A stretch of DNA of 61,360 nt, taken from positions 1 through 61,360 of the forward strand of contig NZ_JACJOO010000056.1 of NCBI RefSeq assembly GCF_014695575.1, written 5' to 3'. This stretch comes from Leptolyngbya sp. FACHB-8. Its GTDB lineage: Bacteria > Cyanobacteriota > Cyanobacteriia > Elainellales > Elainellaceae. The position numbers and the translations under genes were made by a program. Of this stretch, positions 2,185-30,704 are shown piece after piece (position 1 is the stretch's first letter; each line of letters begins with the position of its first letter). The notes under the pieces are model-generated. The model did no database searches. It saw nothing but the letters and a program-made list of their open reading frames with translations, and had not been told where the DNA came from.

Positions 2185-3264
2185 TTAAACCTGTTGCGCC
2201 TTTTGAATATCGCGGAATCCTTTGGCGAATACCGTATTGCTGAGAAAATCCTCAAACAGGTGAGGGGGATCGGCATCAGGTTTGCGTTGTATCATCTGAC
2301 GCAGGCTCCATAGAGAGAAGCCTGTTGACCAGGCCAGATCCGCCAGGGCTGCATAGAGGACGCCGTGATTTTTTACGAAATAACGGCGGCGAGAATCCCA
2401 TACGTATTGAGGGATGCGTTTTTTAGCGCGATCGCGCCCCGTCACTCCGGTACTCTGTCCTGCCAGGTGCATCACCTTACTCTCAGGAACGTACCAGCAT
2501 TCCCATCCGGCGCGTTTTGCCTGTAGGCAGAAGTCTGTTTCTTCGTAGTACAGGAAGTAGTTGTCATCCATTAAGCCAACGGACTCAAATACTTCGCGAC
2601 GAATGATCATACAAGCGCCGGGCATCCAATCAATCTCCTGGGGGCGATCGGTCGCCATCGTTTGTGCCACCACCCAGCGGGACAGCAGCTTTGAGACAAA
2701 TCCCAAACGCAGCCCCGAATCCAACTCACTGAGGATGGAGGGGAAGCGAAAGGCGATCGGCCACAATTCCCCATCAAATTTCTCGATGCAACTTCCGGCA
2801 ATTCCTGCCTTCGGATTGGCATCCATAAAATCTACCAGGGCTTTCATGGAACCAGGTCGTGCCTCTGCATCAGAGTTCAGCAGCATGTAATAGGGAGGCG
2901 GATCGTCCGATTGGAAAGCCGGGCGAATCGCTTCATTGTTGCCATAGGCAAAGCCCCCATTCCTTTCTGCCGGAACCACGGATGCCCAACTACTCCAGCC
3001 TTCTGCTTCAATCGTCTGGGCAATTTTTTCAGCGGAGCCATCCCCTGAATCGTTGTCCACTACTACGGCTTGCATACCGGGAAGGGTGGGAAGCTCAGGA
3101 ACGAGCGATCGCAATGCGCTAATGGTCAGGTCGGCGGTGCGGTAGTTGACGATCGCAACCAGCAAAGGCACTGAGCACTTCGAAGACGATGGAGTTTCGG
3201 TTATGTCCTGTTCCGCACACAGGTCTGCACGCTGGGATTGGGTAGTCATGAAAAGGTGATCCAT
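2185..3264 (-). CDS. Family 2 glycosyltransferase, rhamnosyltransferase-like
   Basis: The 359-aa protein has a GT-A fold, family 2. The nucleotide-binding start is VAIVNYRTADL near residue 37 and VVDNDSGDGS near 66. The metal-binding region is LLNSDAEARPG near 128. The acceptor-side motif EIDWMPGACMIIRR leads into YYEETDFCLQAKRAGW, typical of WbbL/RfbN-like rhamnosyltransferases. It lacks membrane segments apart from a weak one near the C-terminus. It lies 94 bases downstream of the large NRPS gene on the same strand, so it may be co-transcribed and glycosylate the product. It could equally serve surface polysaccharide. The sugar is not predictable. The start could be either of two Met codons (3264 or 3249); neither has a good ribosome-binding site. 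Confidence 0.85.
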   Translation of the reverse strand: MDHLFMTTQSQRADLCAEQDITETPSSSKCSVPLLVAIVNYRTADLTISALRSLVPELPTLPGMQAVVVDNDSGDGSAEKIAQTIEAEGWSSWASVVPAERNGGFAYGNNEAIRPAFQSDDPPPYYMLLNSDAEARPGSMKALVDFMDANPKAGIAGSCIEKFDGELWPIAFRFPSILSELDSGLRLGFVSKLLSRWVVAQTMATDRPQEIDWMPGACMIIRREVFESVGLMDDNYFLYYEETDFCLQAKRAGWECWYVPESKVMHLAGQSTGVTGRDRAKKRIPQYVWDSRRRYFVKNHGVLYAALADLAWSTGFSLWSLRQMIQRKPDADPPHLFEDFLSNTVFAKGFRDIQKAQQV

Positions 3265-3358
3265 TGAGTGTCGGATGGGTCATCCACATGCAGGGGCTAC
3301 ATGTCAAACGTAAGCTAACGGCTCTAACTTGGCCCCCCGAAGAGGGCCAGGGTTAGAT

Positions 3359-6300
3359 TCAGGCTGCCTGTTGTGCATCTGCATTGGATTTGGACTGGTT
3401 AGCATCTTGAGCCAGCGTTGCCACCTCGTTGATAGCCGCTTGTAGATGCTCGGCTAACACCTTCACATTGGGGTCTTGTAGCATACTGGCGTGCCCACCA
3501 GGAACATCATAACTGCGGACTTGGGCCGCACGCTTATCCCATCCCAGCAAAGGCTCCGCGTACTTCTCAATGGCGGGAGTATCGTCGATAGGGGTGCCGT
3601 CAAAAATATTGCTCTTCTGGGTCGCCCGATAGAGCAGCACTTCACCCTCGAGTTGGCCATCAAAGCGATGCTGAGGCCCTGCCCACATAATCACGGTACG
3701 CACTGGGATATTGCGTAGGAATGGGGGTACGGAGATATTGCGATCGAGGCAGTAGCGGAACAAGGACAGTTTGGTATGCTTGAGCGCTGCCAAATACCGC
3801 TGCTGAGTTTCGTAAACCAGGAGGTTGGTGGCTTTCTTCCGGATTTTATTTGCGATGGACAGGACTCTAACCAGAGGATTAGATTGTGTCCCTGTTTTCA
3901 TAACTTGAGCAAAGCGGTTGAGGCGCTGGCTGTTGGCATAGTTGCCACCCCGTTCGGGAGTTCCCACATCGGCAGCATCAAAAATCGCCAGTAAAGCAGT
4001 TTTCTGCCCCTGTTTTTGCAGTTGCAGGGCTACTTCAAAAGCCAAACGCCCGCCTGCACACAGCCCACCAATGAAGTACGGCCCTTCGGGTTGAATCTGG
4101 CGAATTTGCTCGATGTAGAAGTTGACCATGTCTCCGATGCGCGTATGCAAGAGGGGAAAACCTGCCGCACTGTAAGGGCGTAATGCATACACCGGAATGG
4201 TCGGATCGAGTTGCTGCGCCAGACTCCGGTAGACCAGGGTTTCTCCGTCGGCATCGTGAATCAAGAACAGCGGTAACTGGCCAGTGCCGGGTCGCAGTAG
4301 TACCACTGATTCGTAGTGAATCGGCTCTGCATGATTGCTCACGTTTTCCTTATCCAGAACGGCAGCTAGCTGTTCAACTGTGGGAGCCGTTAGAACGGCG
4401 CTCAAAGGCAGCTTTGTCCCAAACTGCTGTTCAATTTGGGAGGTGAGACGTACTGTGAGCAGTGAGTGACCACCCAGGTCGAAGAAATTGTCGGTGACGC
4501 TAATAGCCGGCAAATTCAAGACTTCGGCCCAAATCTGCGCCAACTGTTCTTCTGTTTGGGTGCGAGGGGCCACATGAACGGCTGTTGCCATGCGATCCGA
4601 CAAATCCGGCTTGGGTAGAGCGCGGCGATCGATTTTGCCGTTGGGGGTGAGGGGCAGTGCTTCCAGGGGGACGAAGACCGAGGGCACCATGTAGTCGGGG
4701 AGCGATCGCTTCAAAAACTGCCGCCATTCGCTAGCTCCAATTTCCTCACCAGTTGTCACCACATAGGCCACCAGTGCCTTACGGCCAGGTTCATCTTCCC
4801 GCGCCGCTACCACACACTGCTGCACCGCTGAATGCTGCTTCAGGGCTGACTCAATTTCACCCAGTTCAATCCGGAAGCCCCGGATCTTCACCTGGTGATC
4901 CATCCGGCCCAAAAATTCCACATTGCCGTCGGGCAGATAGCGGCCATAATCTCCTGTCTTGTAGCAGATATCCTGCTGATCACCCGTCAGTGGATTGGCA
5001 ACAAACTTCTCCTGACTCAGGGAACCCTCCAGGTAACCGTTGGAGCGGTAGGGTGTGCGCACGTAAATTTCACCCAATTCGCCAACCCCCGCCAAAGCCT
5101 GACCGGAATTCACAATCATGAGCTGAGTATCTTCGATACCCTGGCCCACCGGTAGGCGAGATGCTCCATGGTGCGGTGCAGTCGTTTCCCCACTGGGAGG
5201 AACTACGAAGTAGCTGGCCAGCTGCGGTGTTTCCGTTGCACCGTAGCCGTTGATTGCCGTTACATGGGGAGCCAGCTTGCGGAACTCATCCAGACTTTGG
5301 CGGGTGAGAATGTCCCCACCAAAGCAGGCATAGCGCAGGCTGGAGAGTTGGAAATTCGCGATCGCCGCTGCGCCTTCCCGGATCAACTGCCCCATGGCTG
5401 GGGTCAGGTGCATTACGCTGATTTCCGACTGGTGTAACCAGGTAGCCAGCTCGCTGGGCGTTTCCATCTGCGCCGGGGAGGGAACGTAGAGGGTGGCCCC
5501 AACGCTCAACGGGGTGAAGATGTCACGCCATAGGGGATCGTGAGCCAGGCCCGACAACTGGCTGAAGTGATCTGTAGTGGTGAAGGGGAAGGTGTGACGA
5601 TACCACCTGAGGAAGTGGGAAACGGGGCTGTGGGTGCCCACAATGGCTTTGGGTTTACCCGTTGAACCGGATGTGAAGGACACATAGGCTCGATGCTCGG
5701 GATTGGGCACAGGTGGCTCATCCGTGGAGCATTGGGCTAGGGCGTCCGGTAGGGTTTGCCCATTGGCGGGAAGGGTGATCTGGCAAGTCCAGGGATGGTT
5801 GGCGATCGCCCCCTGCAATTCCTCAGGAAACTCTCCAGCTGCTTCCAGCACCACCAAACCTTTCGGTTGAGCGATGTCCAGGTAATCCGCCAAACGTGCC
5901 GCAGGATAAGCCGAATCCAGTACTGTAACGGCCGCACCTGCTTTGAGGATGCCCAGCATTGCCCACACCAGGGAAGCGCTACGAGAGGCATAGATCGCGA
6001 CACCGTCCTGAGGTTGAATGCCCTGGCTCACCAAGTAGTTCGCAAGTTGATTGCTGCGCTCGTTGAGGGTGGCATAAGTCCAGGTGCCGTGGCTATCAAT
6101 GACGGCGGGTTGTTGGGGAGTGCGATCGCTCCACTGCACAAACTCGTGATAAATTACCTCGCCTGCATCGTAGGTCAGCGGTAATTGAGGATCAGGCAAC
6201 AGAGCCGCTTTACCCGGTGTTACCAGAGAGAGTTGGGGGATGGGTGTTTCGGGGGCCGCTGCAATTTGCTGAAGCAGATATTCATACTGCACCAGCATTT

Positions 6301-9300
6301 CTTCCATTCGGGCCGCACTGAACAGGTCAGCGTTGGAAACCAGGTTGACCCACAGTTCCCCGTCCTTCTCGCCCACGTACAAGGTGATGTCGAACTTAGA
6401 AGCCGGTTCTGCAACCGAGAGGGATTGGACGTCCAGATCCGCCAGCTCAACAGGGATGCCCTCAAAATTGAACATGTTAAACCACACCTGGAAGATAGGG
6501 GTGCGGCTCAGATCCCGCTCGGGATGCAGTTCTTCCACCAGCTTTTCGAAGGGCATGGCCTGGTGAGCGTAGGCTCCCAGAGCAGTTTGACGCACGCGGC
6601 CCAGCAATTCTCGGAAGCTGGGGTTGTGGCTCAAGTCAGTGCGCAGGACGACGGTGTTGATGAAGAAACCAATGAGGGGTTCTAATTCGGGGCGATCGCG
6701 CTCTGCAATAGGCGTTCCCACCACCACATCCTCTTGTCCTGCCATCCGGCCCAGCAACACCTTGAAAGCGGCTAACAGGGTCATGAACAGGGTGGCCCCT
6801 TCCTGCTGGCTCACCTTCTTGAGAGATTGAGCCAGGTCACCGGAGATCACCCGCGTATGACTTTGCCCGCTGTAGCTCTGGGTAGCAGGACGAGGATAAT
6901 CTGTGGGCAGCTCCAGGGGAGTAATGCCCTGAAGAGTTTCCTTCCAGTAACCGAGGTATTGCTCCAGCACCTCTCCGGCGAACCACTGGCGCTGCCATTC
7001 CGCGAAATCAGCGTACTGTACGGGTAGGGCCACCAGGGGATTGGGTTGTCCGGAACGGAAGGCTTGATAGAGATCGCGCAGCTCCCGGAACAGAATTTCC
7101 ATGGACAGACCATCGGAGCAGATGTGGTGAACAACCACTTGCAGCACATGCTCTTCGGGCTGCAACCGCACCAGGGTTGCCCGCAGCATCAGATCCATGG
7201 AGAGGGTGAAGGGGCGTTGCTCCTCGCGGGTCAAAATTTTCTGTAATTCGGCATCGCGATCGCCCGCTGCCCTTTGGCTCAGGTCAATCAGGGGTAGCTC
7301 AAAAGGCTGGTGGGGCAGAATGACCTGACTGGGGATACCGTTGGTGGCGACAAAGCAGGTACGCAGCGGCTCATGTCGCTCCATGATGGCATCGAGCGCC
7401 TGTTGCAAAGCGGCTACATCTAAAGAACCCTGGAGTCGGATGGCCTTACAGATGTGGTAGGCATAGCTGTCAGGCTCCAATTGATCCAGGTACCAGAGAC
7501 GCTGTTGAGCAAAGGAGAGAGGGGCTGACTGCTCGTTGGAACGTTGAGGAATAATCTGTCGTTCCGTTGAGTCGTTTTCGATAAACTCGGCTAATCCTGC
7601 AATCGTGGGAAATTCAAACAACCGTCGTAGGGGTAAGTCAATTTCCAGATTTTCCTGAATGCGGGCGATTACCTGTGCTGCCATCAGCGAGTGGCCGCCC
7701 AGGGTAAAGAAATCGTTTTCGATACCGACTCGCTCAACGCCAAGGATTGCCGCCCAAACATCCGCCAGGGATTTCTCTAGTTCGGTTCTGGGAGCTACAT
7801 AGGGTGTGTCAGAATTACCCTGGCTCAGGTCTGGATCGGGTAACGCCTTGCGATCGACCTTGCCATTCATATTGAGGGGCAGCGCTTCTAACACCTGGAA
7901 TGCCGAGGGCACCATGTAGTCAGGCAACTTGGCCTGCAAGAAACGGCGCATGGTGTCAGTGGTCGCGGGTTGGGCGGGGTCTAGCACCACGTAGGCCACC
8001 AGACCTTCTTCATCTCGCCACAGGGGTTTCAATGCCACAACACTATCGCGAACACCGGGGCACTGCCGCAGGGTAATTTCGATTTCACCCGGTTCCACCC
8101 GCATCCCCCGAAGCTGAATCTGAAAATCCGATCGCCCCAAAATCTGCACATTGCCATCGGCATCAAAACGGCCTAAATCTCCAGTGCGATAAAAACGCTG
8201 ACCATCAATGTAGATGAATTTCTCCTGAGTTAATTCATCACGATTGAGATAGCCCTGAGTAATGCCATCACCACTGAAGCAAATCTCACCGACCATGCCA
8301 ACCGGAACGGGATTGAGATAGCCGTCATACAACCGAACCATTACGTTGGGAAAGGGTTTACCCACCCAGGTTTTTGTGACGGTGCGATCGCCTGCAAAGA
8401 AAGTGCAACCCATGCAACTCACTTCGCTACAACCATAAATCACAAAAATTTCAGCGTTACGGAACGCCCGCTTCATCGCTTCTTGTAAATCCGCTGATAC
8501 CAGATCTCCACCCGAAGATACATGCTTCAGGTTATCGAAGCGAGATACATTCAAACCGTTGTCATGGATGTAAGCGATTAGTTTGCGGAGCAGGCTGGGA
8601 GATGCATGGATCGTATTAATTTCTTCCAGAAGCTGAATCATCCGCTTAAAGTCAAGGACGCGATCGCGCTCCAGAATGACCAGTTGACCACCAGCCACCA
8701 ACGGCAACAGCAATTCGAAAAAGGTAATGCTGAAGGTATACCGGGCCATGGACGGCAGGATGATATCCGGGCCAAACCGATAAGTATCGACAGCAACGCG
8801 AATGTAGTTCACCAGGTTGCCATGGCTGGCCATCACCCCTTTGGGTTTGCCCGTGGTGCCGGACGTGTAGACGATATAAGCGGTCTGGTTCAGATCTAGC
8901 GAGAGATTTAGATTATGGGTGGGTAGCGCGGCCACATGAGCCCAATCGCGATCCAGGCAGAAGGTGGCAGGAACCAGCGCAGGAACCACCGATTGTAGGT
9001 GGGTTTGCGTCAGCAGCACCTGGGGTTGTGTGTCTTCGAGAATAATGCCCAACCGTTCGGCTGGGTAGCTTGGATCCAGTGGGACGTAGGTACCTCCAGC
9101 TTTAAAGATGGCGAGGAGGGCTACTGATACATCTAAGGAAGGTTCAAAGCAGGCCGCTACCCGTGAGCCGGGAGTAACACCCTGAGCCACAAGATAGTGA
9201 GCCAGTTGGTTGGCCCGCTGGTTCAGTTCGTTGTAGCTAAGGGCTTGCTCCAGAAAACGAACGGCGATCGCCTCGGGCCGCTCTGCGGCATGGGCCTCGA

Positions 9301-10126
9301 TAGCTGTAAAGACTGGGAGCCGGGGATACTCAACGGTAGGGCTACCCCACTCCACGAACATCTGCAGCTTTTCGCTGGGGGTGAGCAGGGGCAGACTGGC
9401 AATGGGGGCATTGGGAGTGGCGATCGCCCCCTCCGCTAATTGGCCCAAATGTCCAGCCAAACGCTCAATGGTTTCCGGCCGGAACAGGTGAGTATTGTAT
9501 GCCAGCGTGCCCTGCAGGCCTGTTTTGGTTTGGACCAGCACTAGATGAAGGTCGGGTGTACCTTGATCGAGAATATGGGCTTCAGCTTCGGAAGAGGTAG
9601 CTGCGGCCTCCGTTACAAAGGTAAAGGCGACAGTAGCCGGAGTGGGAAGGGGCAACCCTGCTTCCATGGCGGAGGAGAGCTGATGTGCCAGAGTTTGCAT
9701 CGACTCTGTTTCATCCAGCGTTAAGGCAATACCCCGTGGTTTTTGGGGAGTGTTATTGGAATTGACCAGGGTCACGTCCAAATCAAGGGTAGTCTGCTGG
9801 GTGTAGCGGAACAGCAGCCCATAGAACACTGTCAACCAGAAGGAACTGGGATGTTTGAGGAGAGGGGAGAAGGGTTGGTGAGGAATTTCTGGCAGGGAGT
9901 CTGCGTGGCAGAAACTGATAAATCCGAATTGATGTGGGGTTGTTGGGTTTTTTAGGAAATCCCAAGGCAGCTGCATATCTGAGCGCATTTTCTTAACCGG
10001 CTGAGATTTGGAGGTAAGAGATGAAGGCTCAAAGGATCGTTCGGCTCTGCCGTTCCGTCCTTGGGAATTGTCATCACCTTCACAAACCGATGCTTCAACT
10101 GGCACCAACACTTGCTCAAAACTCAT
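3359..10126 (-). CDS. Nonribosomal peptide synthetase: half-C, A, T, C, A, T, TE
   Basis: The protein is 2255 aa. Residues 50-255 resemble the C-terminal half of a condensation domain without HHxxxDG. A1 (about 265-760) has SGTTGKPKG near 425; at the A4 motif it reads TFSITFFEL, so the Asp that anchors the substrate amino group is Ser. A5 is GCSEVSCMGC. T1 is LGGHSL near 811. The C domain (about 850-1290) has HHICSDG near 1003 and looks active. A2 (about 1335-1830) is Lys2-like with AHDPLWRDIF and YGATET. T2 is LGGHSL near 1887. The TE has GLCAGG with Cys2023 in place of Ser and GGHAS near 2210. Prediction: load a non-amino aryl acid, join one amino acid, then release. The N-terminus (MSFxxVL) matches the neighbouring NRPS-like protein, which implies duplication. 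Specificities are inferred by eye. Confidence 0.93.
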   Translation of the reverse strand: MSFEQVLVPVEASVCEGDDNSQGRNGRAERSFEPSSLTSKSQPVKKMRSDMQLPWDFLKNPTTPHQFGFISFCHADSLPEIPHQPFSPLLKHPSSFWLTVFYGLLFRYTQQTTLDLDVTLVNSNNTPQKPRGIALTLDETESMQTLAHQLSSAMEAGLPLPTPATVAFTFVTEAAATSSEAEAHILDQGTPDLHLVLVQTKTGLQGTLAYNTHLFRPETIERLAGHLGQLAEGAIATPNAPIASLPLLTPSEKLQMFVEWGSPTVEYPRLPVFTAIEAHAAERPEAIAVRFLEQALSYNELNQRANQLAHYLVAQGVTPGSRVAACFEPSLDVSVALLAIFKAGGTYVPLDPSYPAERLGIILEDTQPQVLLTQTHLQSVVPALVPATFCLDRDWAHVAALPTHNLNLSLDLNQTAYIVYTSGTTGKPKGVMASHGNLVNYIRVAVDTYRFGPDIILPSMARYTFSITFFELLLPLVAGGQLVILERDRVLDFKRMIQLLEEINTIHASPSLLRKLIAYIHDNGLNVSRFDNLKHVSSGGDLVSADLQEAMKRAFRNAEIFVIYGCSEVSCMGCTFFAGDRTVTKTWVGKPFPNVMVRLYDGYLNPVPVGMVGEICFSGDGITQGYLNRDELTQEKFIYIDGQRFYRTGDLGRFDADGNVQILGRSDFQIQLRGMRVEPGEIEITLRQCPGVRDSVVALKPLWRDEEGLVAYVVLDPAQPATTDTMRRFLQAKLPDYMVPSAFQVLEALPLNMNGKVDRKALPDPDLSQGNSDTPYVAPRTELEKSLADVWAAILGVERVGIENDFFTLGGHSLMAAQVIARIQENLEIDLPLRRLFEFPTIAGLAEFIENDSTERQIIPQRSNEQSAPLSFAQQRLWYLDQLEPDSYAYHICKAIRLQGSLDVAALQQALDAIMERHEPLRTCFVATNGIPSQVILPHQPFELPLIDLSQRAAGDRDAELQKILTREEQRPFTLSMDLMLRATLVRLQPEEHVLQVVVHHICSDGLSMEILFRELRDLYQAFRSGQPNPLVALPVQYADFAEWQRQWFAGEVLEQYLGYWKETLQGITPLELPTDYPRPATQSYSGQSHTRVISGDLAQSLKKVSQQEGATLFMTLLAAFKVLLGRMAGQEDVVVGTPIAERDRPELEPLIGFFINTVVLRTDLSHNPSFRELLGRVRQTALGAYAHQAMPFEKLVEELHPERDLSRTPIFQVWFNMFNFEGIPVELADLDVQSLSVAEPASKFDITLYVGEKDGELWVNLVSNADLFSAARMEEMLVQYEYLLQQIAAAPETPIPQLSLVTPGKAALLPDPQLPLTYDAGEVIYHEFVQWSDRTPQQPAVIDSHGTWTYATLNERSNQLANYLVSQGIQPQDGVAIYASRSASLVWAMLGILKAGAAVTVLDSAYPAARLADYLDIAQPKGLVVLEAAGEFPEELQGAIANHPWTCQITLPANGQTLPDALAQCSTDEPPVPNPEHRAYVSFTSGSTGKPKAIVGTHSPVSHFLRWYRHTFPFTTTDHFSQLSGLAHDPLWRDIFTPLSVGATLYVPSPAQMETPSELATWLHQSEISVMHLTPAMGQLIREGAAAIANFQLSSLRYACFGGDILTRQSLDEFRKLAPHVTAINGYGATETPQLASYFVVPPSGETTAPHHGASRLPVGQGIEDTQLMIVNSGQALAGVGELGEIYVRTPYRSNGYLEGSLSQEKFVANPLTGDQQDICYKTGDYGRYLPDGNVEFLGRMDHQVKIRGFRIELGEIESALKQHSAVQQCVVAAREDEPGRKALVAYVVTTGEEIGASEWRQFLKRSLPDYMVPSVFVPLEALPLTPNGKIDRRALPKPDLSDRMATAVHVAPRTQTEEQLAQIWAEVLNLPAISVTDNFFDLGGHSLLTVRLTSQIEQQFGTKLPLSAVLTAPTVEQLAAVLDKENVSNHAEPIHYESVVLLRPGTGQLPLFLIHDADGETLVYRSLAQQLDPTIPVYALRPYSAAGFPLLHTRIGDMVNFYIEQIRQIQPEGPYFIGGLCAGGRLAFEVALQLQKQGQKTALLAIFDAADVGTPERGGNYANSQRLNRFAQVMKTGTQSNPLVRVLSIANKIRKKATNLLVYETQQRYLAALKHTKLSLFRYCLDRNISVPPFLRNIPVRTVIMWAGPQHRFDGQLEGEVLLYRATQKSNIFDGTPIDDTPAIEKYAEPLLGWDKRAAQVRSYDVPGGHASMLQDPNVKVLAEHLQAAINEVATLAQDANQSKSNADAQQAA

Positions 10127-10771
10127 AGTGACTCTTTACAGATGAAAGGGAATGACTTGAAACGATTGGGTCGTGGCCGACGTTTGAGTCCTCTACAGCA
10201 AGACCACCGGATGGCTGGATGTGTTAGAAGAACAGCACTAGTGGGGTACTACAATCTAGTTCTGCAGCAGTCCGCTGTTAAGCCAAAATTTTCTAAAACC
10301 AGTGAATTGCCAATACCGGTCGGTCGGATCTTCAACGTTAGAGAGGGGCAACCCGTAGATAGGCTCGCGTAAATTTGGTAGAGCACCCTCCTAAGTCTAG
10401 AGCCACTATATAACTGACTGACGAATATCCTCCTGATAGGGTTAACTTACGCTTCAAACGATGAATAGCTGTTAGTGAAAATTGTCCGTAGGATGACGGA
10501 TAAATGAACAACTAACCTAGAGGTCTTTCAGTGTATTACCCATGTCATGGCGAACATAACATAGAGAATTTCAGCAAACCAATATTTTCTTATAGAAATT
10601 CATCAGAAATACATATTGACCTCTCCGTACTACGGAGATGCTTTATGTGCGCAGTTTGCATAAGGATACTATCCCCTAACACATAGGCTTTGGGCTTCTA
10701 GCCCCGCAGCTAGCTGGGAAAAAAGAAGTTAATTTTTATGGATAAGGCATAGGAAAGAGTGCTACTTTCCG

Positions 10772-10828
10772 ATAACAACTCATTTATTTTTGCCATCACT
10801 TTACGATGAAAAATAAATGAGTTGTTAT
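10772..10828. repeat. Palindrome, 20-base perfect arms
   Basis: Arms 10772-10791 and 10809-10828 (ATAACAACTC... inverted) are perfect around a 17-base loop. Outside them TTCCGAT and ATCGGAA pair again after a two-base bulge. The sequence is AT-rich and unlike the neighbouring hairpins. Confidence 0.7.
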
Positions 10829-10857
10829 ATCGGAACTAACCATTAGTAGCTCAGCCT

Positions 10858-10926
10858 AATTAAAAAGACCCAAAGGGTTGTGTCGCCCGCTTTGTGGATG
10901 GCACAGCCCTTTGGGTCTTTTTAATT
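10858..10926 (-). terminator. Long hairpin, possible terminator upstream of the NRPS leader
   Basis: The 25-base arms begin AATTAAAAAGACCCAAAGGG and have one mismatch that becomes U-G in RNA. The outer part is A/T-rich on both sides, so it can act as a bidirectional Rho-independent terminator. It lies about 175 bases past the stop of the minus-strand A-T-TE gene, where it would separate that transcript from the downstream NRPS. Confidence 0.6.
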
Positions 10927-10970
10927 GCAATCACCTACTTATCCTCAGTTCAGGATAAGCTAAAGTGCCC

Positions 10971-11001
10971 ATTTTGGTGTACGCAGAGCGTACACCAAAA
11001 T
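10971..11001. repeat. Hairpin with AGA loop and flank shared with 61110
   Basis: Perfect 14-base arms (ATTTTGGTGTACGC) enclose AGA. The upstream flank CCTCAGTTCAGGATAAGC (10943-10960) resembles CCTCAATTCGGGATAAGC at 61112-61129, which also precedes a triloop hairpin. This points to a dispersed element with a conserved flank and a freely changing stem. Confidence 0.65.
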
Positions 11002-11100
11002 CCCCCTGAACCCAGCTATGAATTTGGATGCGCCCTTGGGCACATCTTGCACCCAATAGGTGTGACGTTCGTCTGCTGGCTGTATAGGCTCTAGCCCGTT

Positions 11101-14100
11101 TTATTGAGGGAGATAGGGGGTTAAGTGCTCTGCCATCATTCTGACATTGGGAGTTCTCAGGATGCCCAGGTGATTACCGGGAATGTGCACAACCTCAAGC
11201 CGATCAACATAGGAACCCCAGCCCATATCTTGATTGGGGTCGACCTCAAATGGGTCGCGATCCATCGCCCGGAATAGGATGACGTTGCCTTTGTAGGGGG
11301 TGAGGAAATAATAGCGGCTTACCTGTGCCCGAAACGCTTCTCGTACGTCAGAAGGTACATCAGTTGACGGCGGGCTTGCTGGCTGTACTCCTTCATTTGT
11401 TTTGCTATGAGCGGGAAGCTTGACCTTGCCTTTAAATTTGTTGAGCGTGCCCTGAATTTTGTCTGCGAGATAGGACGGGCCTTGCTGGGTTGCCATTTCC
11501 AAATGCTTTTTCAGACGATGCTTCAGAGATGCCTGGGCATAGCTATTGGGTGCTTTTGAATCGAGCAGAGCGATCAGGGCAACTTCTTCCCCTTCGGCTT
11601 CGAGTTGCTGTGCCATTTCGTAGGCAATGACGCCACCAAAAGACTCACCCGCGAAGTAGTAAGGGCCATGGGGTTGCAATGAGCGTACGGCCTTTAGGTA
11701 TTGCTGGGCGATCGCCGGAACCGTAGAGAAATGGGCAAACTTCGGATCATCCTGCCAGCCTGGCCCAGCCTTGAGAATCTCCACCTCCTCCTCCAGATAA
11801 ACCCCGTACACGGGCTGATCGGGATCGAGGTGTTCCACCAAGTCACGGTAGAGTAAAACTCCATACAAGCAGAATAGTGGTGGTTTGCTCCCCTCTTTAC
11901 GAAGGGGCACCAACCCGGTATTTGCAATGCTTCCCTTGAAGTTGCGGATGAGCTCCGCCATCTCCTCGATGGTCGGTGCCTGCAAGGGAGCCGTGATCGA
12001 AAGAGTTTTGTTGAAAACGGTCTCAATTTGCATGAGAATTTGCACCGCCATCAGCGAATCACCGCCCATTTCAAAGAAATTGTTGCGGATGCCGATAGGG
12101 GAAATGCCTAGGACTGTTTCCCAAATTTCTGCGAGTTGAGACTCAAGCTCGTCGCGAGGAGCGACATACGCGCTTGCATCTACCAGATCTGCCAGGGTGG
12201 GAACCGGTAAATTCAGCCGATCTACTTTGCCGTTAACGTTCAACGGCATGGCATCCAGTTCTTTGTAAATGGTGGGTACCATGTAGTCGGGTAGTTTCGC
12301 CTCCAGAAACCGGCGAATTTGCTGGGTCGTGGGCTTGTTGTCTGCCTCCAACACTAGGTAGGCAATTAAGCTTTTCTCCTCATTGCCCGGAAGAGTTTGG
12401 GCGGCAACTACGGCCTCGCGCACTCCGGCTACCTGGCGCAGGGTTGCCTCAATCTCGGCGGGCTCCATGCGGATGCCCCGTAACTTGATTTGAAAATCCG
12501 CACGGCCCAGAATTTCAAGATTGCCATCGGTATCAAAGCGACCTAAGTCGCCGGTGCGGTAGTACCTCTGGCCGCCAATCATGACAAACCGTTCAGCCGT
12601 TAATTCATCACGGTTCAGATAACCTTTGTTAATCCCAGCACCACCAAAAAAGATTTCACCAGGGATACCAACGGGAACCAAATTGTAATCCGGATCGAAT
12701 AGCCTTACCGATACATTGGGGAAGGGTTTACCAACACGGGTTTTGGTTGGGCTACCATCTCGGGGAGTGAAATAGGTGCAGCCCATGCAACTAATTTCGC
12801 TGCACCCGTAAATGACAAACACTTCCGCGTTGGTAAAGGTTTGCTTCATCATTTCCAACAGGTCAGCGGCTACCATATCACCACCTGAGGAGACATGGCG
12901 AAGCTGCTGGAATCGGTTCAGGTCTAGCTGGTTGTCGTGGATATAATTGACCAATTTACGCAGCAGACTGGGAGATGTGTGGATGATGGTGACCTCTTCC
13001 AGGGTCTGAATCATCCGCTTGAAATCCAGAATATGATCGCGTTCCAGCAGTAGCAAACGTCCGCCTGCTACTAGGGGTGACCACAGCTCAAACATCGTGA
13101 TGCTGAAGGTATAGCGGGCAATGGATGGCATCACATCCTGGTCATTAAACCCATACTTTTCCTGGGCTACCCAAATGTAATTGATCAGATTTTGGTGGCT
13201 GGCCATAACCCCTTTGGGCTTGCCTGTGGTCCCCGAGGTGTAGATGATGTAGGCGGTCTGATCCAAGTCGATGGGGTAGTTGGGATTGTGAGTGGGCTGC
13301 GAGGCTACCGTTTCCCAATCACGATCGAGGCAGAAGGTATGCTGGGCGATCGCCGGTACGTTCCCCAGTAACCGCTCCTGGGTCAATAGCATGAGGGGTT
13401 CCGTGTCTTCGAGGATAGCGGTGCGCCGCTCCAAGGGGTGGCTGGGGTCAAGGGGGACATACACACCGCCAGCTTTATGAATAGCCAGTACACCTACCAG
13501 TACCTCCAGGCCGGGTTCCAGACAGGTCGCAACGCGTACTTCGGGGCCGACGCCGAGGGTCCGCAGGTGGTGAGCCAATTGGTTGGCCCGCTGGTTCAAC
13601 TCCGCGTAAGTCAGGTGTTGGTTGGTAAATGTGAGGGCGATCGCCTCAGGACGCTGTGCAGCGTGTGCTTCAATGACCGTGAAGATGGGCTTTTGGGGAT
13701 ACTCAACAGCAGGACTGGCCCAATCTACAAGTAGTTGATGAGTTTCGTCGGCTGTTAGAAGAGCCAGGTCAGCAACAGTTTGATCCGGGTCACCTATGAG
13801 ACCTTCGATGAGCTGGTTGAGATGCCCGGCACACCGCTCAATAGTGGAGCGCTCGAATAAATTGGCGTTGTAGCGCAGGGTGCCCTGAATGCGTTCTGGG
13901 GCGCTCTGCACATGTAAATGTAGATCAGGTGCCTCGGTTGTCAATTTCCCGGTGAAATCAGCTGTGTCAAAGGAAACGACTATATTAGAGCGTGACTGGT
14001 TCTCCAGTGATTCCAGCCCGCTCTCTGGATCTGAAAGGGCAACGGAAAGGTTTTGCACCAGGGAGCGAAGGGAAGCGAGGCTAGATACCGATGTCGTCAG

Positions 14101-14454
14101 ACCCAGGGGTGGCAGCGTGGTCTTGTGATAACTCAGTGCCAGGACATCTAGATTAATGAGGGTTTGTCGGGTGTAACGGTATAGGAGGGCGCTCAAGGCA
14201 GCCAGCACGATGCTATCGGGATGAATGCCTTGAATGAGTTGCTCAGATAAAAACTTGGGCAGAGTTGATGGAAGGGTAAACTGAACCTGCTCTGGATTGT
14301 AGGATGTTGCCGCTGTTTTGAGGTAGTCGTAGGGCAACTGAAGCCCAGGCCGCTCTTGAAGCGACGTTGGTTGAGATTCGGTGCGGGGAGAGGGGCTGCT
14401 CTCCACCTGCTGTACCGATGAGTCTAAAGCATCCAGAACCGATTTAAAGCTCAT
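11101..14454 (-). CDS. NRPS-like aryl-acid synthetase: half-C, A, T, TE
   Basis: The protein is 1117 aa. Residues 35-240 form a degenerate half condensation domain without HHxxxDG. The A domain (about 250-745) has SGTTGKPKG near 410. A4 reads TFSITMFEL, again Ser in place of the amino-group-binding Asp, and A5 is GCSEISCMGC. T is MGGDSL near 799. The TE has GESFGG (Ser938), Asp in LLDSKAP and His in GNHLG near 1094, a normal triad. The A-T-TE order is that of enzymes which dimerise aryl pyruvates (atromentin, ralfuranone type). By my alignment its pocket code equals that of A1 of the next gene, so both probably take the same substrate. It may make a homodimer or supply an acyl unit. The same strand and shared N-terminal MSFxxVL mark it as paralogous to the NRPS downstream. 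Confidence 0.92.
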   Translation of the reverse strand: MSFKSVLDALDSSVQQVESSPSPRTESQPTSLQERPGLQLPYDYLKTAATSYNPEQVQFTLPSTLPKFLSEQLIQGIHPDSIVLAALSALLYRYTRQTLINLDVLALSYHKTTLPPLGLTTSVSSLASLRSLVQNLSVALSDPESGLESLENQSRSNIVVSFDTADFTGKLTTEAPDLHLHVQSAPERIQGTLRYNANLFERSTIERCAGHLNQLIEGLIGDPDQTVADLALLTADETHQLLVDWASPAVEYPQKPIFTVIEAHAAQRPEAIALTFTNQHLTYAELNQRANQLAHHLRTLGVGPEVRVATCLEPGLEVLVGVLAIHKAGGVYVPLDPSHPLERRTAILEDTEPLMLLTQERLLGNVPAIAQHTFCLDRDWETVASQPTHNPNYPIDLDQTAYIIYTSGTTGKPKGVMASHQNLINYIWVAQEKYGFNDQDVMPSIARYTFSITMFELWSPLVAGGRLLLLERDHILDFKRMIQTLEEVTIIHTSPSLLRKLVNYIHDNQLDLNRFQQLRHVSSGGDMVAADLLEMMKQTFTNAEVFVIYGCSEISCMGCTYFTPRDGSPTKTRVGKPFPNVSVRLFDPDYNLVPVGIPGEIFFGGAGINKGYLNRDELTAERFVMIGGQRYYRTGDLGRFDTDGNLEILGRADFQIKLRGIRMEPAEIEATLRQVAGVREAVVAAQTLPGNEEKSLIAYLVLEADNKPTTQQIRRFLEAKLPDYMVPTIYKELDAMPLNVNGKVDRLNLPVPTLADLVDASAYVAPRDELESQLAEIWETVLGISPIGIRNNFFEMGGDSLMAVQILMQIETVFNKTLSITAPLQAPTIEEMAELIRNFKGSIANTGLVPLRKEGSKPPLFCLYGVLLYRDLVEHLDPDQPVYGVYLEEEVEILKAGPGWQDDPKFAHFSTVPAIAQQYLKAVRSLQPHGPYYFAGESFGGVIAYEMAQQLEAEGEEVALIALLDSKAPNSYAQASLKHRLKKHLEMATQQGPSYLADKIQGTLNKFKGKVKLPAHSKTNEGVQPASPPSTDVPSDVREAFRAQVSRYYFLTPYKGNVILFRAMDRDPFEVDPNQDMGWGSYVDRLEVVHIPGNHLGILRTPNVRMMAEHLTPYLPQ

Positions 14455-15528
14455 AATCCGCAGCTCAAGAGGTAGTTCTTCAGTAACGCGCAGCGACAGG
14501 GCTATCTATAATTTGCGCCCCCGTACAGGGCACATTAAGGAGATGACTTTCGTCCAAAACGATGAACCGAAAATATCTATTTATGTGCACTGAACGTCTC
14601 AACTCAACGAACAGGGAAAACCATCGCTTACACAATACAACCCTTCAGGTAGAACACCTTAGGGAGTAGCCATTTGCCATCGATAAACTGATGAGATAAA
14701 CGGATGTAGCGGTGTACCCACTCTAATCCAATCATTCTGTCTCTGGTAGTCCCATCCGTATTTTCACGGTGAAAATGAGACGGGGCTACAAATCGGGAAA
14801 CCCAACAATAGTCAGAAACAAAGATTAGGAATCTGTAATTCTTAATTTGGAGGCTATCACAAATTTGGAGATCGACCAAAAAATCTAAGGCCAAGTTCAC
14901 TAGAACTACATAGAAATCCTTCGATATTTAGGGATTGCAAAAACTGACCATTTATCCTTTAGCTTTTTTTTCATCCTTTTTTTCAACACATTTGGTAGTT
15001 TCCCTGAGAACATAGATTTTGTTTTAGGGATAGAGGCATGAGAATAGGGATTCTAAAAATTTCCTACTTTCCCTATCTATTTGTATTTTTGTCATTTTTA
15101 TATGAAGCTGTACGGAATGAGAGGTTTGATACGCCTATGTACCGCACCTCTCATTTCGTGCAGCTTGGTATTGGTTTAGCTGTAATTTGATCCCATAGTG
15201 AAAATACGTAAGTCTTCATAGTGCCTTTAAGAAGATGTCATGAAGTGAATGGAGTTTTTTATATTCCATTTTCTGGAATCGAGTTTGTGCTTGATGTTTG
15301 CAATTAAACCGTTCTGATTCTTGTTATTTCTGAAACGATTACGGAGCTTTTGGCAAATCTTTAAGCAAGCTTCTCTCCGTATGAAGAGTAGATGTACCCT
15401 CTAGTGGACTTACTTAGCCCTGAGCTAGAGTGAGTCTCAAGTTCACCCAATAACCCCCTGAAATATCTCAGAGCTGCGGTGATTTCTCCTTAGCGTTTTA
15501 CGTTCATTTAGCTCTAAGCGGAGAGGCT
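14455..15528. other. Divergent intergenic region of the aryl-acid locus
   Basis: The 1.07 kb lie between the divergent synthetase and HPPD genes and must hold promoters for both. I see no recognisable gene; a 90-codon minus-strand ORF (14628-14900) has no family features. Runs of T (14960-14990) and the AT-rich stretch 14980-15105 precede a hairpin at 15105-15166. A Shine-Dalgarno-like GGAG lies at about 15519, before the HPPD start. Confidence 0.6.
15105..15166. promoter_or_regulatory. Hairpin in the HPPD 5' region with wobble-compatible mismatches
   Basis: The 21-base arms (15105-15125 and 15146-15166) enclose a 20-base loop. The two mismatches in DNA would be U-G and G-U in plus-strand RNA, so the stem is complete only as RNA. 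It lies about 360 bases before the HPPD start and could be a leader structure or a terminator. The role is inferred. Confidence 0.45.
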
Positions 15529-16617
15529 ATGATGAGTGATGTCTGCCCCATTATCGGAGTTGATCATTTGGAGTTCTTCGTCGGTAATGCGAAGCAATCG
15601 GCGCAGTTTTATTCCAGATGTTTCGGCTTTCAAAATACTGCCTATCGTGGTCTAGAAACGGGAGAACGCAAGACTTCATCCTATGTTATGGAGCAGGGAG
15701 AAATTCGCTTCGTTCTAACCTCTGCTATGGTGGGTGACCACCCCATTAATAAGAGTGTGATGAAGCATGGCGATACCATCGGCGTTATGGCATTTCAAGT
15801 GCCCGACGTTACCGCTGCCTACCGGTATGCTATTTCTCAGGGGGCAGTCGGTGCCATTCCTCCCACTGAGCAGGATGATGAGCATGGAACGCTGCGTTAT
15901 GCTGCCGTCCGCTCTTTTGGGGATGTGTTAGTTAAGTTTGTTGAGCGACAAGCTTATAGCGGCCCGTTTGCTCCTGGATTCGTAGCCCGCGCCTCTGTTC
16001 CTGGCCCTAATGCTGGTCTAAAGCGGATCGACCACATCGTTGGTAACGTTGAGCGGGGCATGATGGATCGCTGGGTGGAGTTTTTCCAGAAGGCGATGGG
16101 CTTTGAACTGCGGATGCATTTCGATGAGCAAACCATTTCCACTGAGTATTCTGCTCTGATGTCGAAGGTGTTGCAAAACGGTAGCAAAACTATCGTGAAC
16201 ATCAACGAGCCTGCAGATGGTTTGCGGAAGTCCCAAATTGAAGAATTCCTGGATTTCCACTACGGCCCTGGGATTCAGCATATTGCATTGGAAACGACCG
16301 ACATTGTGCAGGCGGTAGTGCAATTGCGGCAGGCCGGGGTTGAGTTTCTGCCTATCCCCAAAACCTATTACGAAAATCTGGAAGACTGGGTTCGCGAAAT
16401 TGATGTCCCAGTCGAGAAGCTGGCAGAACTGGGCATTCTGGTAGACCGCGATGAGGATGGATATCTGCTGCAACTGTTCACCAAGCCGCTGGGCGATCGC
16501 CCCACCCTCTTCTTCGAAGTCATTGAACGTCATGGATGCCGTGGCTTTGGTGCCGGTAACTTTAAATCCCTGTTTGTGGCTCTAGAGCGTGAGCAAGCCC
16601 TACGCGGCAACCTTTAA
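15529..16617 (+). CDS. hpd: 4-hydroxyphenylpyruvate dioxygenase
   Basis: This Fe(II) enzyme turns 4-hydroxyphenylpyruvate plus O2 into homogentisate and CO2. The protein is 362 aa with two vicinal-oxygen-chelate halves. The metal ligands are visible: His169 (RIDHIVGNV), His251 (GIQHIALE) and Glu330 (FFEVIER). Each lies 18-19 residues before its counterpart in the Streptomyces avermitilis enzyme. Phe345 in GNFKSLF matches the Phe that separates HPPD from hydroxymandelate synthase. The C-terminus EREQALRGNL is typical. It starts a two-gene operon with the prephenate dehydrogenase (about 75 bases between) and is divergent from the synthetases. Homogentisate could feed tocopherol-type quinones or the locus product. 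Confidence 0.95.
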   Translation: MMSDVCPIIGVDHLEFFVGNAKQSAQFYSRCFGFQNTAYRGLETGERKTSSYVMEQGEIRFVLTSAMVGDHPINKSVMKHGDTIGVMAFQVPDVTAAYRYAISQGAVGAIPPTEQDDEHGTLRYAAVRSFGDVLVKFVERQAYSGPFAPGFVARASVPGPNAGLKRIDHIVGNVERGMMDRWVEFFQKAMGFELRMHFDEQTISTEYSALMSKVLQNGSKTIVNINEPADGLRKSQIEEFLDFHYGPGIQHIALETTDIVQAVVQLRQAGVEFLPIPKTYYENLEDWVREIDVPVEKLAELGILVDRDEDGYLLQLFTKPLGDRPTLFFEVIERHGCRGFGAGNFKSLFVALEREQALRGNL

Positions 16618-16691
16618 GTTTTTCCGTTTCCCTGTTTCGACCTTTTTTGTACGCCAACGAAACCCCCTATCGTCACGAGGTAAAGCTGACT

Positions 16692-17804
16692 ATGGCCGGA
16701 ACTAAGACGCTACAGCAAATCGACCAAGCTTTGATTGCGCTGCTCAGTGAGCGCATTTCCCTACTAGAGACCTCGGGTGCCCCCTCCATAGAAGAGCAGC
16801 TGAGTAATGCTCGGTCATGCTTAATGAATACGAATGTTACGGAGTTCACCTGGAATTCTTTAATTGTAAACTGCATGGCAGCTCTGGCAACGGAGACACC
16901 TACCCCCCAACAAAAGCATGCCCAAAGCCGCCGTATCACGGTAATTGGGGGCCGTGGGATCATGGGAAGCTTCTTCACTGAGCGGATGGCTGCTGCAGGC
17001 CACCAGGTGAGCATCCTGGAGTATGACGATTGGGATCGGGCCGATACGCTGCTAGGCGATGCGGATTTGGTGCTGATTGCAGTACCCCTCAAGAGCACTG
17101 TGGCGATGGTTCGTAAGGTAGCGAGCTATCTTTCCCCCAACACGATTCTGGCAGATGTGGCCAGTACCAAAACCGAAGTGGTGCAAGCCATGATGGAGCA
17201 TCACAACGGGCCAGTTGTTGGTTTACACCCAATGTTTGGGGTTGGCAGCGGTACCTTCCTCGGTAAGAAGGTGGTGGTGTGCCCCGGACGTAACGCTGAA
17301 GCATCCCAGTGGTTGTTGGATCTGATTGAGGCCGATGGCGGTACCCTGATCACCTGCACTCCTGAAGAGCATGACACGATGATGGTGGCGGTTCAGGTCA
17401 TTCGATTCTTCTCTGACTTCAGCCTGGGAACTTTTTATGCCCGAGAAGGGGTGGACATCGATCGCAGCTTCGAGTTTGCTAGCCCTCTCTATCGCTCCGA
17501 AATCAACATCATCAGTCGTCTGGTGACTCAAGATGCTGCCCTCTATGTAGACATTTTGATGGCTTCCCAGGAACGTCTCGATGCTATCGAACGAATGGTC
17601 GCCACCTACAGCCACCTGGCAGATTTGTTGAAGAAGGGCGATCGCGCCGGTCTCATTGCCGAGTTCGAGAAAACCGGAGCAGCCTTTAAGCCCGGAGCGA
17701 AGCGCTCCATGGTAGAGAGTAGCTACATGCTGAATAACCTCAGCAACTTCGTCGCCGCTAGTCAGGTTGAGATGGAGCAGACCTGCGAAGCTGCTGCTGC
17801 CTAA
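16692..17804 (+). CDS. tyrA: NAD-type prephenate dehydrogenase with vestigial chorismate mutase domain
   Basis: The protein is 370 aa and collinear with the E. coli T-protein. It starts with an AroQ-like helix (TLQQIDQALIALLSERISLL), but the N-terminal domain is about 18 residues shorter than in E. coli. The catalytic Arg of LRDQID is Gln, and the VKSR and PERE segments are missing, so mutase activity is unlikely. The dehydrogenase has GGRGIMGSFF, then ILEYDDWDRA, where the acidic end of the second strand favours NAD. It also has DVASTKT, GLHPMFG (His179) and SPLYRSEI. It should make 4-hydroxyphenylpyruvate from prephenate. Most cyanobacteria use an arogenate dehydrogenase, so this copy looks dedicated to the locus, as tyrA is in scytonemin clusters. 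ATG 16692 is chosen because GAGG precedes it and it matches the E. coli start; a TTG at 16647 is possible. Confidence 0.92.
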   Translation: MAGTKTLQQIDQALIALLSERISLLETSGAPSIEEQLSNARSCLMNTNVTEFTWNSLIVNCMAALATETPTPQQKHAQSRRITVIGGRGIMGSFFTERMAAAGHQVSILEYDDWDRADTLLGDADLVLIAVPLKSTVAMVRKVASYLSPNTILADVASTKTEVVQAMMEHHNGPVVGLHPMFGVGSGTFLGKKVVVCPGRNAEASQWLLDLIEADGGTLITCTPEEHDTMMVAVQVIRFFSDFSLGTFYAREGVDIDRSFEFASPLYRSEINIISRLVTQDAALYVDILMASQERLDAIERMVATYSHLADLLKKGDRAGLIAEFEKTGAAFKPGAKRSMVESSYMLNNLSNFVAASQVEMEQTCEAAAA

Positions 17805-17862
17805 CCCGCTTTTCCAGCGCAGGGCGTTGCATCCCCTGAAGAAAGACAACGTTAGTGCGATC

Positions 17863-17897
17863 GCCTGATTTTCAGCGCCCCTGTCTGAAAATCAGGC
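17863..17897 (+). terminator. Terminator of the hpd-tyrA operon
   Basis: Perfect 13-base arms (GCCTGATTTTCAG inverted) enclose a nine-base loop, followed by TTTCCTAT, 58 bases after the tyrA stop. The left arm overlaps a HIP1 site. Confidence 0.7.
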
Positions 17898-29571: not shown

Positions 29572-29620
29572 GATGCAGGGGTGGTATGGCGCGTTTCACG
29601 CGCCATACCACCCCTGCATC
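29572..29620. terminator. Bidirectional hairpin between convergent genes
   Basis: Perfect 23-base arms (GATGCAGGGGTGGTATGGCGCG inverted) enclose TTC. Its right end overlaps the TGA stop of the kinase gene on the minus strand, and it lies after the P-type ATPase gene on the plus strand. It directly abuts the preceding repeat. Confidence 0.65.
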
Positions 29621-30704
29621 ATGCTGCTAATGCTGCCAGGGTAATTTCAAAAATGGCACCTTTAGGCTCATTATTGCGGACGCTAATTTTGCCTCCGTGG
29701 GCTTCTACTACCATTTTGCAGAAGGCCAGGCCCAAGCCAATTTGCGATACATCTGGCATCAGTGTGCCTACTTCATACTTCTCGAAAATCTTTTGCTGCA
29801 AGCCCTCAGGTACCCCCGGGCCAGCGTCGATGACTTGAATTTGACAATGCCCTGAAGATGGATAGTCTACCTTCACCATAATTTCGCCCTGGCGGGGAGA
29901 GAACTTGATGGCGTTGGAGATGAGATTATCCAAGGCCCGGTGCATAATGGCCGGATCCGCATACACCGTTTGTTGCGGCACGTTCGGCAGATGGCTGACA
30001 AGAGATTGTTTTTTCTGGGCTGCGATCGCCTCAAAATTTGAGACCGCTGACTGCACCAGCGCCACCATATCCACCTCTGTGCAGTTCAGGCAAATTTTTC
30101 CCGACTCCAGCAGCGCAATCTTGAGCAGGTCATCAATCAACCCCTGTAATGCTTGAGCTGAACCATGAATCTGTGAGAGCTTCGCTTGCTGCTTTTCGGG
30201 GGGATACCCGGCAGTTCTGAGAACATCCAGCCCAAAAAGAATACTGCTGAGCGGATTTCGCAAGTCGTGAACCACCATGTTGACCATGTCTTCCCGCAAC
30301 TTCAAGAGGGTTTGCAGGTCGTCATACTGGTGTTTAATGCGTAGCATCGATTGAACCCGAGCCCGTAGTTCAATCGAGTTTACGGGCTTGCTGATAAAAT
30401 CGTCTGCACCGGCCGCCAAACACCGCGCCAGGTCTGCCTTCGAGTTCAACGCCGTAACCATAATGATGGGGATGGCCTGCCATTTGGGTTTCGACTTAAT
30501 GTGCTGGCACAGCTCAATGCCATTGATTCTAGGCATCATGACATCCAGCAAGATCAAGTCCGGGAGACAGGCATGGAGAGCGGCGATCGCCTCCTCTCCA
30601 CCGGCTGCATAGTGTAATTCGTAATCCTGCTTGCTCAGGAGGGCCTCGATGACCATAAAGTTATCTGCTTCGTCATCGACCACTAAAATATAAGGCTGCT
30701 TCAT
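29619..30704 (-). CDS. Receiver-histidine kinase hybrid (REC-HisKA-HATPase)
   Basis: The 361-aa protein has an N-terminal REC with VDDEADNF, LLDVMMPRING (Asp near 55) and SKPVNSIEL. A short coiled coil leads to HisKA with VVHDLRNPLSS (His near 145). HATPase has LISNAIKFSPRQ and a G2-like IGLGLAFCKMVV. It is cytosolic. Its ATG overlaps the TGA of the upstream 1915-aa kinase in an ATGA of four bases, so the two are translationally coupled and probably form one phosphorelay, with the large kinase donating to this receiver. Confidence 0.93.
   Translation of the reverse strand: MKQPYILVVDDEADNFMVIEALLSKQDYELHYAAGGEEAIAALHACLPDLILLDVMMPRINGIELCQHIKSKPKWQAIPIIMVTALNSKADLARCLAAGADDFISKPVNSIELRARVQSMLRIKHQYDDLQTLLKLREDMVNMVVHDLRNPLSSILFGLDVLRTAGYPPEKQQAKLSQIHGSAQALQGLIDDLLKIALLESGKICLNCTEVDMVALVQSAVSNFEAIAAQKKQSLVSHLPNVPQQTVYADPAIMHRALDNLISNAIKFSPRQGEIMVKVDYPSSGHCQIQVIDAGPGVPEGLQQKIFEKYEVGTLMPDVSQIGLGLAFCKMVVEAHGGKISVRNNEPKGAIFEITLAALAA

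Follow-up and report, generated by a model that had tools for sequence, protein, structure and literature searches.

What does a cyanobacterium make with two nonribosomal peptide synthetases (NRPSs) whose first adenylation (A) domains lack the aspartate that binds the amino group, encoded beside genes that make and use 4-hydroxyphenylpyruvate (4-HPP)? Such a locus is present on contig NZ_JACJOO010000056.1 of Leptolyngbya sp. FACHB-8, in the stretch of 61,360 nucleotides analysed here (the window). It consists of the synthetases NRPS1 and NRPS2, a gene (hpd) for 4-hydroxyphenylpyruvate dioxygenase (HPPD), a gene for the prephenate dehydrogenase TyrA and a glycosyltransferase gene. The locus is best read as a dedicated natural-product cluster in which the Asp-less A domains load homogentisate, a reading given a probability of roughly 0.55. 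Homogentisate appears to be the likeliest substrate because HPPD is the steadier partner of the synthetases, because the A pocket has changed where HPPD was replaced, and because the other hpd of this genome lies among homogentisate-catabolism genes.

Gene organization of the locus

All five genes that an earlier note on this DNA had described (a family 2 glycosyltransferase, two synthetases and the divergent hpd and tyrA) were found where it placed them. Its placement of the locus thus holds, and the end that it gave, 17897, lies about 90 bases beyond the tyrA stop. The features are listed below, with the synthetase domains abbreviated as C (condensation), T (thiolation) and TE (thioesterase).

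2185..3264, minus strand: glycosyltransferase, family 2, rhamnosyltransferase-like (PF00535, 5.7e-10)
3359..10126, minus strand: NRPS2, 2255 residues, Pfam order C remnant-A1-T-C-A2-T-TE
11101..14454, minus strand: NRPS1, 1117 residues, Pfam order C remnant-A-T-TE
14455..15528: divergent intergenic spacer between NRPS1 and hpd, 1074 bases, GC 0.40 versus 0.517 for the window
15529..16617, plus strand: HPPD, the second copy of this genome (TIGR01263, 410 bits)
16647..17804, plus strand: TyrA, prephenate dehydrogenase of the E. coli (CM-PDH) type (PRK11199, 284 bits)

The spacer is presumably the site of promoters for both directions. The TyrA match to PRK11199 (284 bits, cut-off 273) spans model positions 91-369 only. 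Starting at position 91, it is accompanied by no chorismate mutase domain detectable by Pfam, and translation more likely begins at the ATG at 16692 than at the TTG. The only other TyrA match in this genome reaches 27% over residues 132-249.

Pocket of the Asp-less adenylation domains

The amino-group aspartate is indeed missing, as the note had claimed, from the first A domain of both synthetases. Asp235 is replaced by serine, and the surrounding segment reads F-S-I-T-x-F-E versus F-D-I-S-V-A-E in the LgrA reference. The pocket of NRPS1 and of A1 of NRPS2 is S-I-F..S-G-I-C-M; position 278 was dropped from the code owing to a gap in the automatic alignment, and is a histidine by eye. Their A5 motif is YGCSE versus YGPTE in amino-acid A domains.

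This A-domain type was detected in 3/386 genomes sampled across the phylum (at most seven candidates scored per genome), in 5/36 genomes of the order, and at 23 loci in the genomes of 84,980 species. A hit in the last scan depends on either of two peptide patterns, and records close to the window's genome may be missing from it. In all 28 A domains of the type, code position 1 is serine and the A5 proline is lost, the motif being YGCSE, YGSSE, YGCTE or YGSTE and never YGP. Position 5 is either serine or phenylalanine. Residues 299/301/322/330/331 are S-G-I-C-M in 22 of the 28, including those from Pseudomonadota, Myxococcota and Acidobacteriota, S-G-I-V-M in two from Ramlibacter, and F-G-L-S-L in four (loci L045, L046 and L048 and genome G006). 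The genomes of these four all carry a single-domain HPPD-like protein. The F-G-L-S-L domains group together with support (100/99), and their clade lies within HPPD-partnered A domains (97/89 with the L039-L042 group).

Conservation of the neighbourhood

Synthetases alike over near-full length (43-51%, blastp) were found, among 60 genomes, in this genome and in G005, G006, G011, G018 and G037, and NRPS1 has relatives in the latter five with 46-57% identity over the aligned parts. The gene order of the locus is also seen in other genera. The cyanobacterial comparison covers 19 loci: the window, L035 (= G011), L036-L044, L045 (= G018), L046 (= G005), L047, L048 (= G336), L049, G006, G037 and G180.

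HPPD adjoins the synthetase in 12 of these 19 loci. In three others the block holds the HPPD-like protein, adjoining the synthetase in L046 and two genes off in L045 and L048. The four loci without a nearby dioxygenase are L036, G006, G037 and G180. The L036 synthetase starts 940 bases from a contig end, and its genome has a cluster-type HPPD on a different contig, close to the start; in G006, the HPPD-like protein likewise lies near a contig start, on a contig other than that of the synthetase. Outside the cyanobacteria, HPPD adjoins the synthetase in 4/8 loci (L052, L053, L054 and L056). For L055, the available stretch is only 3.5 kb long, and no HPPD match was found in its genome.

TyrA of the E. 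coli type occurs in 8 of the 60 genomes (this one included), and all six synthetase carriers are among those eight (hypergeometric p = 5.6e-7, with the caveat that related genomes are not independent). The two TyrA genomes without a detected synthetase are G034, a 68%-complete metagenome-assembled genome (MAG) with a cluster-type hpd-tyrA pair, and G057, with a TyrA of 44% identity. The note had staked its proposal on hpd and tyrA staying beside the synthetases in relatives; they are kept there, which speaks in its favour, and its view of a dedicated natural-product locus fed from 4-HPP is supported by this conserved neighbourhood.

TyrA is in the block of 11/19 cyanobacterial loci; the examined stretches of the eight others yielded none. 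HPPD is thus the steadier neighbour of the synthetase, and TyrA is optional. As a candidate core partner TyrA is disfavoured, since HPPD is kept without it in L038, L043, L044, L047 and L049. The four non-cyanobacterial HPPD loci also lack it, some of these contigs being short.

Dioxygenases of the cluster

The window HPPD is a full member of its family, with 410.4 bits against TIGR01263 (cut-off 277). Its best match in the Protein Data Bank is the HPPD 1t47 (4e-115), and the hydroxymandelate synthases 7yvv (1e-52), 3zgj (1e-51) and 2r5v (2e-49) follow at a distance. The comparison is one of scores, and 7yvv and 3zgj are named by their titles. Residues H169, H251 and E330, which we take to be the 2-His-1-Glu metal ligands of HPPD, are invariant across 11 aligned HPPDs.

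The other hpd of this genome is 61% identical and is located at G000:C86. Beside it (G000:C86:106121-111033, equal to L112:6122-11034) there is a strong match to fumarylacetoacetase, together with modest Pfam matches to homogentisate dioxygenase (34.5 and 22.1 bits), and the region is likely a homogentisate-catabolism cluster judging by these matches. An HPPD at G011:C470 has the same neighbours in the same order, by eye.

A tree of 54 HPPD rows, 50 of them different, groups the cyanobacterial cluster HPPDs in one clade of 16 rows with 100/100 support. Fourteen of these are labelled as cluster copies, including L113 (G037) and L114 (G034), both found with tyrA and away from a synthetase; the copy of the L036 genome and a second, duplicate L114 row make up the rest. 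This clade falls within a supported group (100/98) that includes the second copy at G000:C86 and the G011:C470 protein. At least three HPPD lineages appear to accompany one A-domain type, because the non-cyanobacterial loci hold HPPDs from two other lineages, L053/L056 and L052/L054. These are 64% and 73% identical within the pairs and 29-34% identical to the window HPPD, and the L053 protein is closest to the Pseudomonas HPPD 1cjx.

The single-domain HPPD-like protein gives strong matches in 3/60 genomes, all of them synthetase carriers (G005, G006 and G018). Its single-sequence matches to HPPDs are weak (best 5e-6). Its kinship with the HPPD catalytic half rests on profile comparison (hhalign probability 97.3, E 1.9e-11), in which both metal-binding histidines and the glutamate are aligned, and not on a predicted model. 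A model built from three sequences reached a pLDDT of 37. A second one reached 62.8, but C-terminal halves of HPPDs were already part of its alignment, which makes its structure match partly circular; it ranks the hydroxymandelate synthase 7yvv first, with HPPDs close behind and methylmalonyl-CoA epimerases nearly as good. In L045:5594-7195 and L048:5626-7318 the HPPD-like protein is followed by an O-methyltransferase (Methyltransf_3, scanned in L024, the same copy as L045), which we take to be of the catechol type.

Possible substrates of the adenylation domains

The note had left the product as derived from either an aryl pyruvate or homogentisate. The homogentisate half is strengthened by HPPD being steadier than TyrA and by the pocket shift at HPPD replacement; the aryl-pyruvate half is weakened by a pocket that begins with serine and not with valine or an aliphatic residue, with the A5 proline loss still pointing toward keto acids.

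If the A domains activated 4-HPP and the TE coupled a pair of units, as ralfuranone or atromentin synthetases do, HPPD would feed a second branch or limit the pool. This is unlikely, although it accounts for several features: the A-T-TE layout of NRPS1, a TyrA that makes 4-HPP in the block of 11/19 cyanobacterial loci, and the loss of both the Asp and the A5 proline, as in the keto-acid enzyme StsA (PMC11253843). The aryl-acid enzyme DhbE is likewise altered in A5 (PMC11253843). The pocket argues the other way. Fungal A-T-TE quinone synthetases carry valine at code position 1, with asparagine at position 5 for 4-HPP (PMC10316625), and in keto-acid A domains an aliphatic residue replaces Asp235 (PMC10949194), versus serine in 28/28 and serine or phenylalanine at position 5 here. 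HPPD, moreover, drains 4-HPP and yet is kept in blocks without TyrA. With 4-HPP as substrate TyrA would be expected to be constant and HPPD would be wasteful; 4-HPP therefore fits worse.

Activation of an ordinary amino acid, or of an aryl acid that HPPD does not make, is improbable. Loss of the aspartate alone is no proof to the contrary, McyG activating Phe with valine in its place (PMC11253843), but here the Asp and the A5 proline are lost together in 28/28 and the pocket shifts with the dioxygenase type. It is less probable again that the dioxygenase is a hydroxymandelate synthase supplying 4-hydroxymandelate for activation. The two enzymes belong to one superfamily, and the moderate model of the HPPD-like protein may point this way with 7yvv ranked first and HPPDs close behind. 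Against this, the window protein passes TIGR01263 (410 vs 277 bits), scores better with 1t47 (4e-115) than with any hydroxymandelate synthase (1e-52 at best) and falls in the group of an HPPD that adjoins homogentisate-catabolism genes. Least credible is a chance meeting of NRPS genes with an independent hpd-tyrA unit for tocopherol or tyrosine catabolism. Cyanobacteria use HPPD for tocopherol, and both the G037 pair, away from its synthetase, and the pair of the MAG G034, with no synthetase detected, would suit such a unit. The pairing nevertheless recurs in 12/19 cyanobacterial and 4/8 other loci, a separate HPPD lies with catabolic genes in this genome, and the six synthetase carriers all fall among the 8/60 TyrA carriers (p = 5.6e-7).

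Homogentisate as the loaded acid also has points weighing against it. The A5 change, found in 28/28, is the one described for a keto-acid enzyme, StsA (PMC11253843), and no assayed A domain with this pocket was found in the literature searched. The pocket change alongside the dioxygenase swap is suggestive, being one evolutionary event and not a statistical result. In G037 HPPD and TyrA lie together on another contig (G037:C135:26087-28511, L113), as though the cluster had been split. HPPD was not found near the synthetase in G180 (20 kb) or in the examined stretches of L050, L051 and L057, a homologue being present elsewhere in each genome. In the genomes of L053, L054 and L056 no HPPD was found other than the adjacent one, which could therefore also serve general metabolism. 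On the window HPPD, the hydroxymandelate synthases (1e-52) score better than the Pseudomonas HPPD 1cjx (4e-40), with 1t47 far ahead of both. The L045 and L048 loci, finally, may make another product, because a methyltransferase that is presumably of the catechol type is present and homogentisate is not a catechol.

No NRPS using homogentisate appeared among the titles and abstract openings listed in the literature search, in some cases for the best hits only, with most subscription journals and MIBiG lying outside the search, and the word stem homogentis is absent from the main text of the A-domain reviews PMC11253843 and PMC11355689.

Synthetase architecture and proposed pathway

By Pfam, NRPS2 consists of A, T, C, A, T and TE domains and a second, weaker C stretch, and neither synthetase contains a ketoreductase (KR) domain. 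The C-domain motif HHICSDG of NRPS2 is intact. The NRPS1 TE has the serine nucleophile motif GESFGG; that of NRPS2 has cysteine at the nucleophile position (GLCAGG), as do 15 of the 23 TEs read. The NRPS2 TE shares 44-54% identity with the Cys TEs of L022, L023, L024 and L026 and 26% with the NRPS1 TE. NRPS2 therefore seems to resemble a relative's A-T-TE(Cys) enzyme carrying an inserted C-A-T module, because its TE matches the Cys TEs of relatives and not the TE of NRPS1.

This C-A-T module supports the extension by one amino acid that the note had proposed. A2 of NRPS2 (residues 1485-1710) keeps the Asp; it reads HDPLWRDIF, and its code begins D-P-R in the alignment. It is unlike the A2 domains of four two-module cyanobacterial relatives (L036, L040, L043 and L049). 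Judging by their codes, the former is presumably Lys2/aminoadipate-like and the latter are presumably Gly-like.

The glycosyltransferase reaches 46 bits against TIGR01556, far under the 200.55 cut-off. It occurs in 8/19 cyanobacterial loci, with 63-69% identity in the seven beyond the window, and outside the cyanobacteria in L056 (Cellvibrionaceae, 57%) and L053 (Pseudomonadales, 40%). The nine loci with a glycosyltransferase of at least 57% identity, the window being counted by NRPS2, all have a Cys TE, and L053, with the more distant one, has a Ser TE. A Cys TE without a glycosyltransferase in the examined stretch occurs in L037, L044, L048, L050 and L023.

In the proposed pathway, TyrA would convert prephenate to 4-HPP and the cluster HPPD would convert 4-HPP to homogentisate. 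In both synthetases the Asp-less A domain would adenylate this acid to homogentisyl-AMP and load it onto the T domain as homogentisyl-S-T. On NRPS1 (A-T-TE), the Ser thioesterase would release the product, probably as an ester, depside or lactone. On NRPS2, homogentisate would be joined to one amino acid via C-A2-T, and the Cys thioesterase would release the conjugate. The glycosyltransferase may then decorate the NRPS2-type product, as its retention in 8/19 cyanobacterial loci suggests.

Two further synthetase arrangements were seen in relatives. In Pseudanabaena frigida (L049:4021-13308) the Ser-type A domain occurs twice within a row of three open frames. In Pseudomonadales (L053:12250-16959) a synthetase adjoining the A-T-TE enzyme has N-terminal formyltransferase domains and, inserted in its own A domain, a luciferase-like monooxygenase. 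Elsewhere in the window, positions 30701-36448 encode a hybrid histidine kinase of 1915 residues with numerous PAS domains and response-regulator domains, adjoined by a smaller kinase gene (29619-30704).

Comparison with known systems

The atromentin, polyporic acid and ralfuranone synthetases share with this family the A-T-TE layout, the absence of the amino-group Asp and an aromatic non-amino acid from the 4-HPP/phenylpyruvate pool. The present family differs in having serine (28/28) in place of valine at position 1 and serine or phenylalanine at position 5, and has in addition a C remnant, a Cys TE in 15/23, a dedicated HPPD and, in some variants, an inserted C-A-T. By score and metal ligands, the cluster hpd belongs fully to TIGR01263; it is set apart as a second copy, with its own clade and a synthetase as partner. 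Scytonemin-type loci carry an extra tyrA copy supplying 4-HPP. They share the extra E. coli-type TyrA with the present locus, which has synthetases and HPPD besides.

The loading module of aeruginosin synthetase AerA (A-KR-T) is also cyanobacterial, handles a phenylpyruvate- or hydroxyphenylpyruvate-derived unit and has lost the Asp (PMC10143770). The enzymes described here have no KR (Pfam), possess a TE and carry serine, not a hydrophobic residue. The aryl-acid A domains DhbE and EntE resemble them in taking a non-amino aromatic acid and in their altered A4/A5 motifs (PMC11253843). They differ in having benzoate-type substrates and Asn (DhbE) or Asp (EntE) at 235, versus serine in an A domain that lies inside an NRPS.

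Implications

A more tentative reading, at somewhat under even odds, is that a rare yet widespread synthetase family, spanning Cyanobacteriota, Pseudomonadota and Myxococcota, commits to homogentisate supplied by its own dedicated HPPD. On one branch within the cyanobacteria, HPPD would then have given way to a single-domain HPPD-like dioxygenase, accompanied in some loci by a methyltransferase, and the A pocket would have changed along with it in a natural substrate switch. If this is true, homogentisate (2,5-dihydroxyphenylacetate), a redox-active hydroquinone, would join the acids loaded by NRPS A domains, and the SIF...S-G-I-C-M pocket next to hpd would provide a handle for genome mining. 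The pocket swap, coupled to a change of the upstream enzyme, would be testable with a few purified proteins. The reading would also account for the additional hpd and tyrA genes of Leptolyngbya-type cyanobacteria, which might be taken wrongly for genes of tocopherol formation or catabolism.

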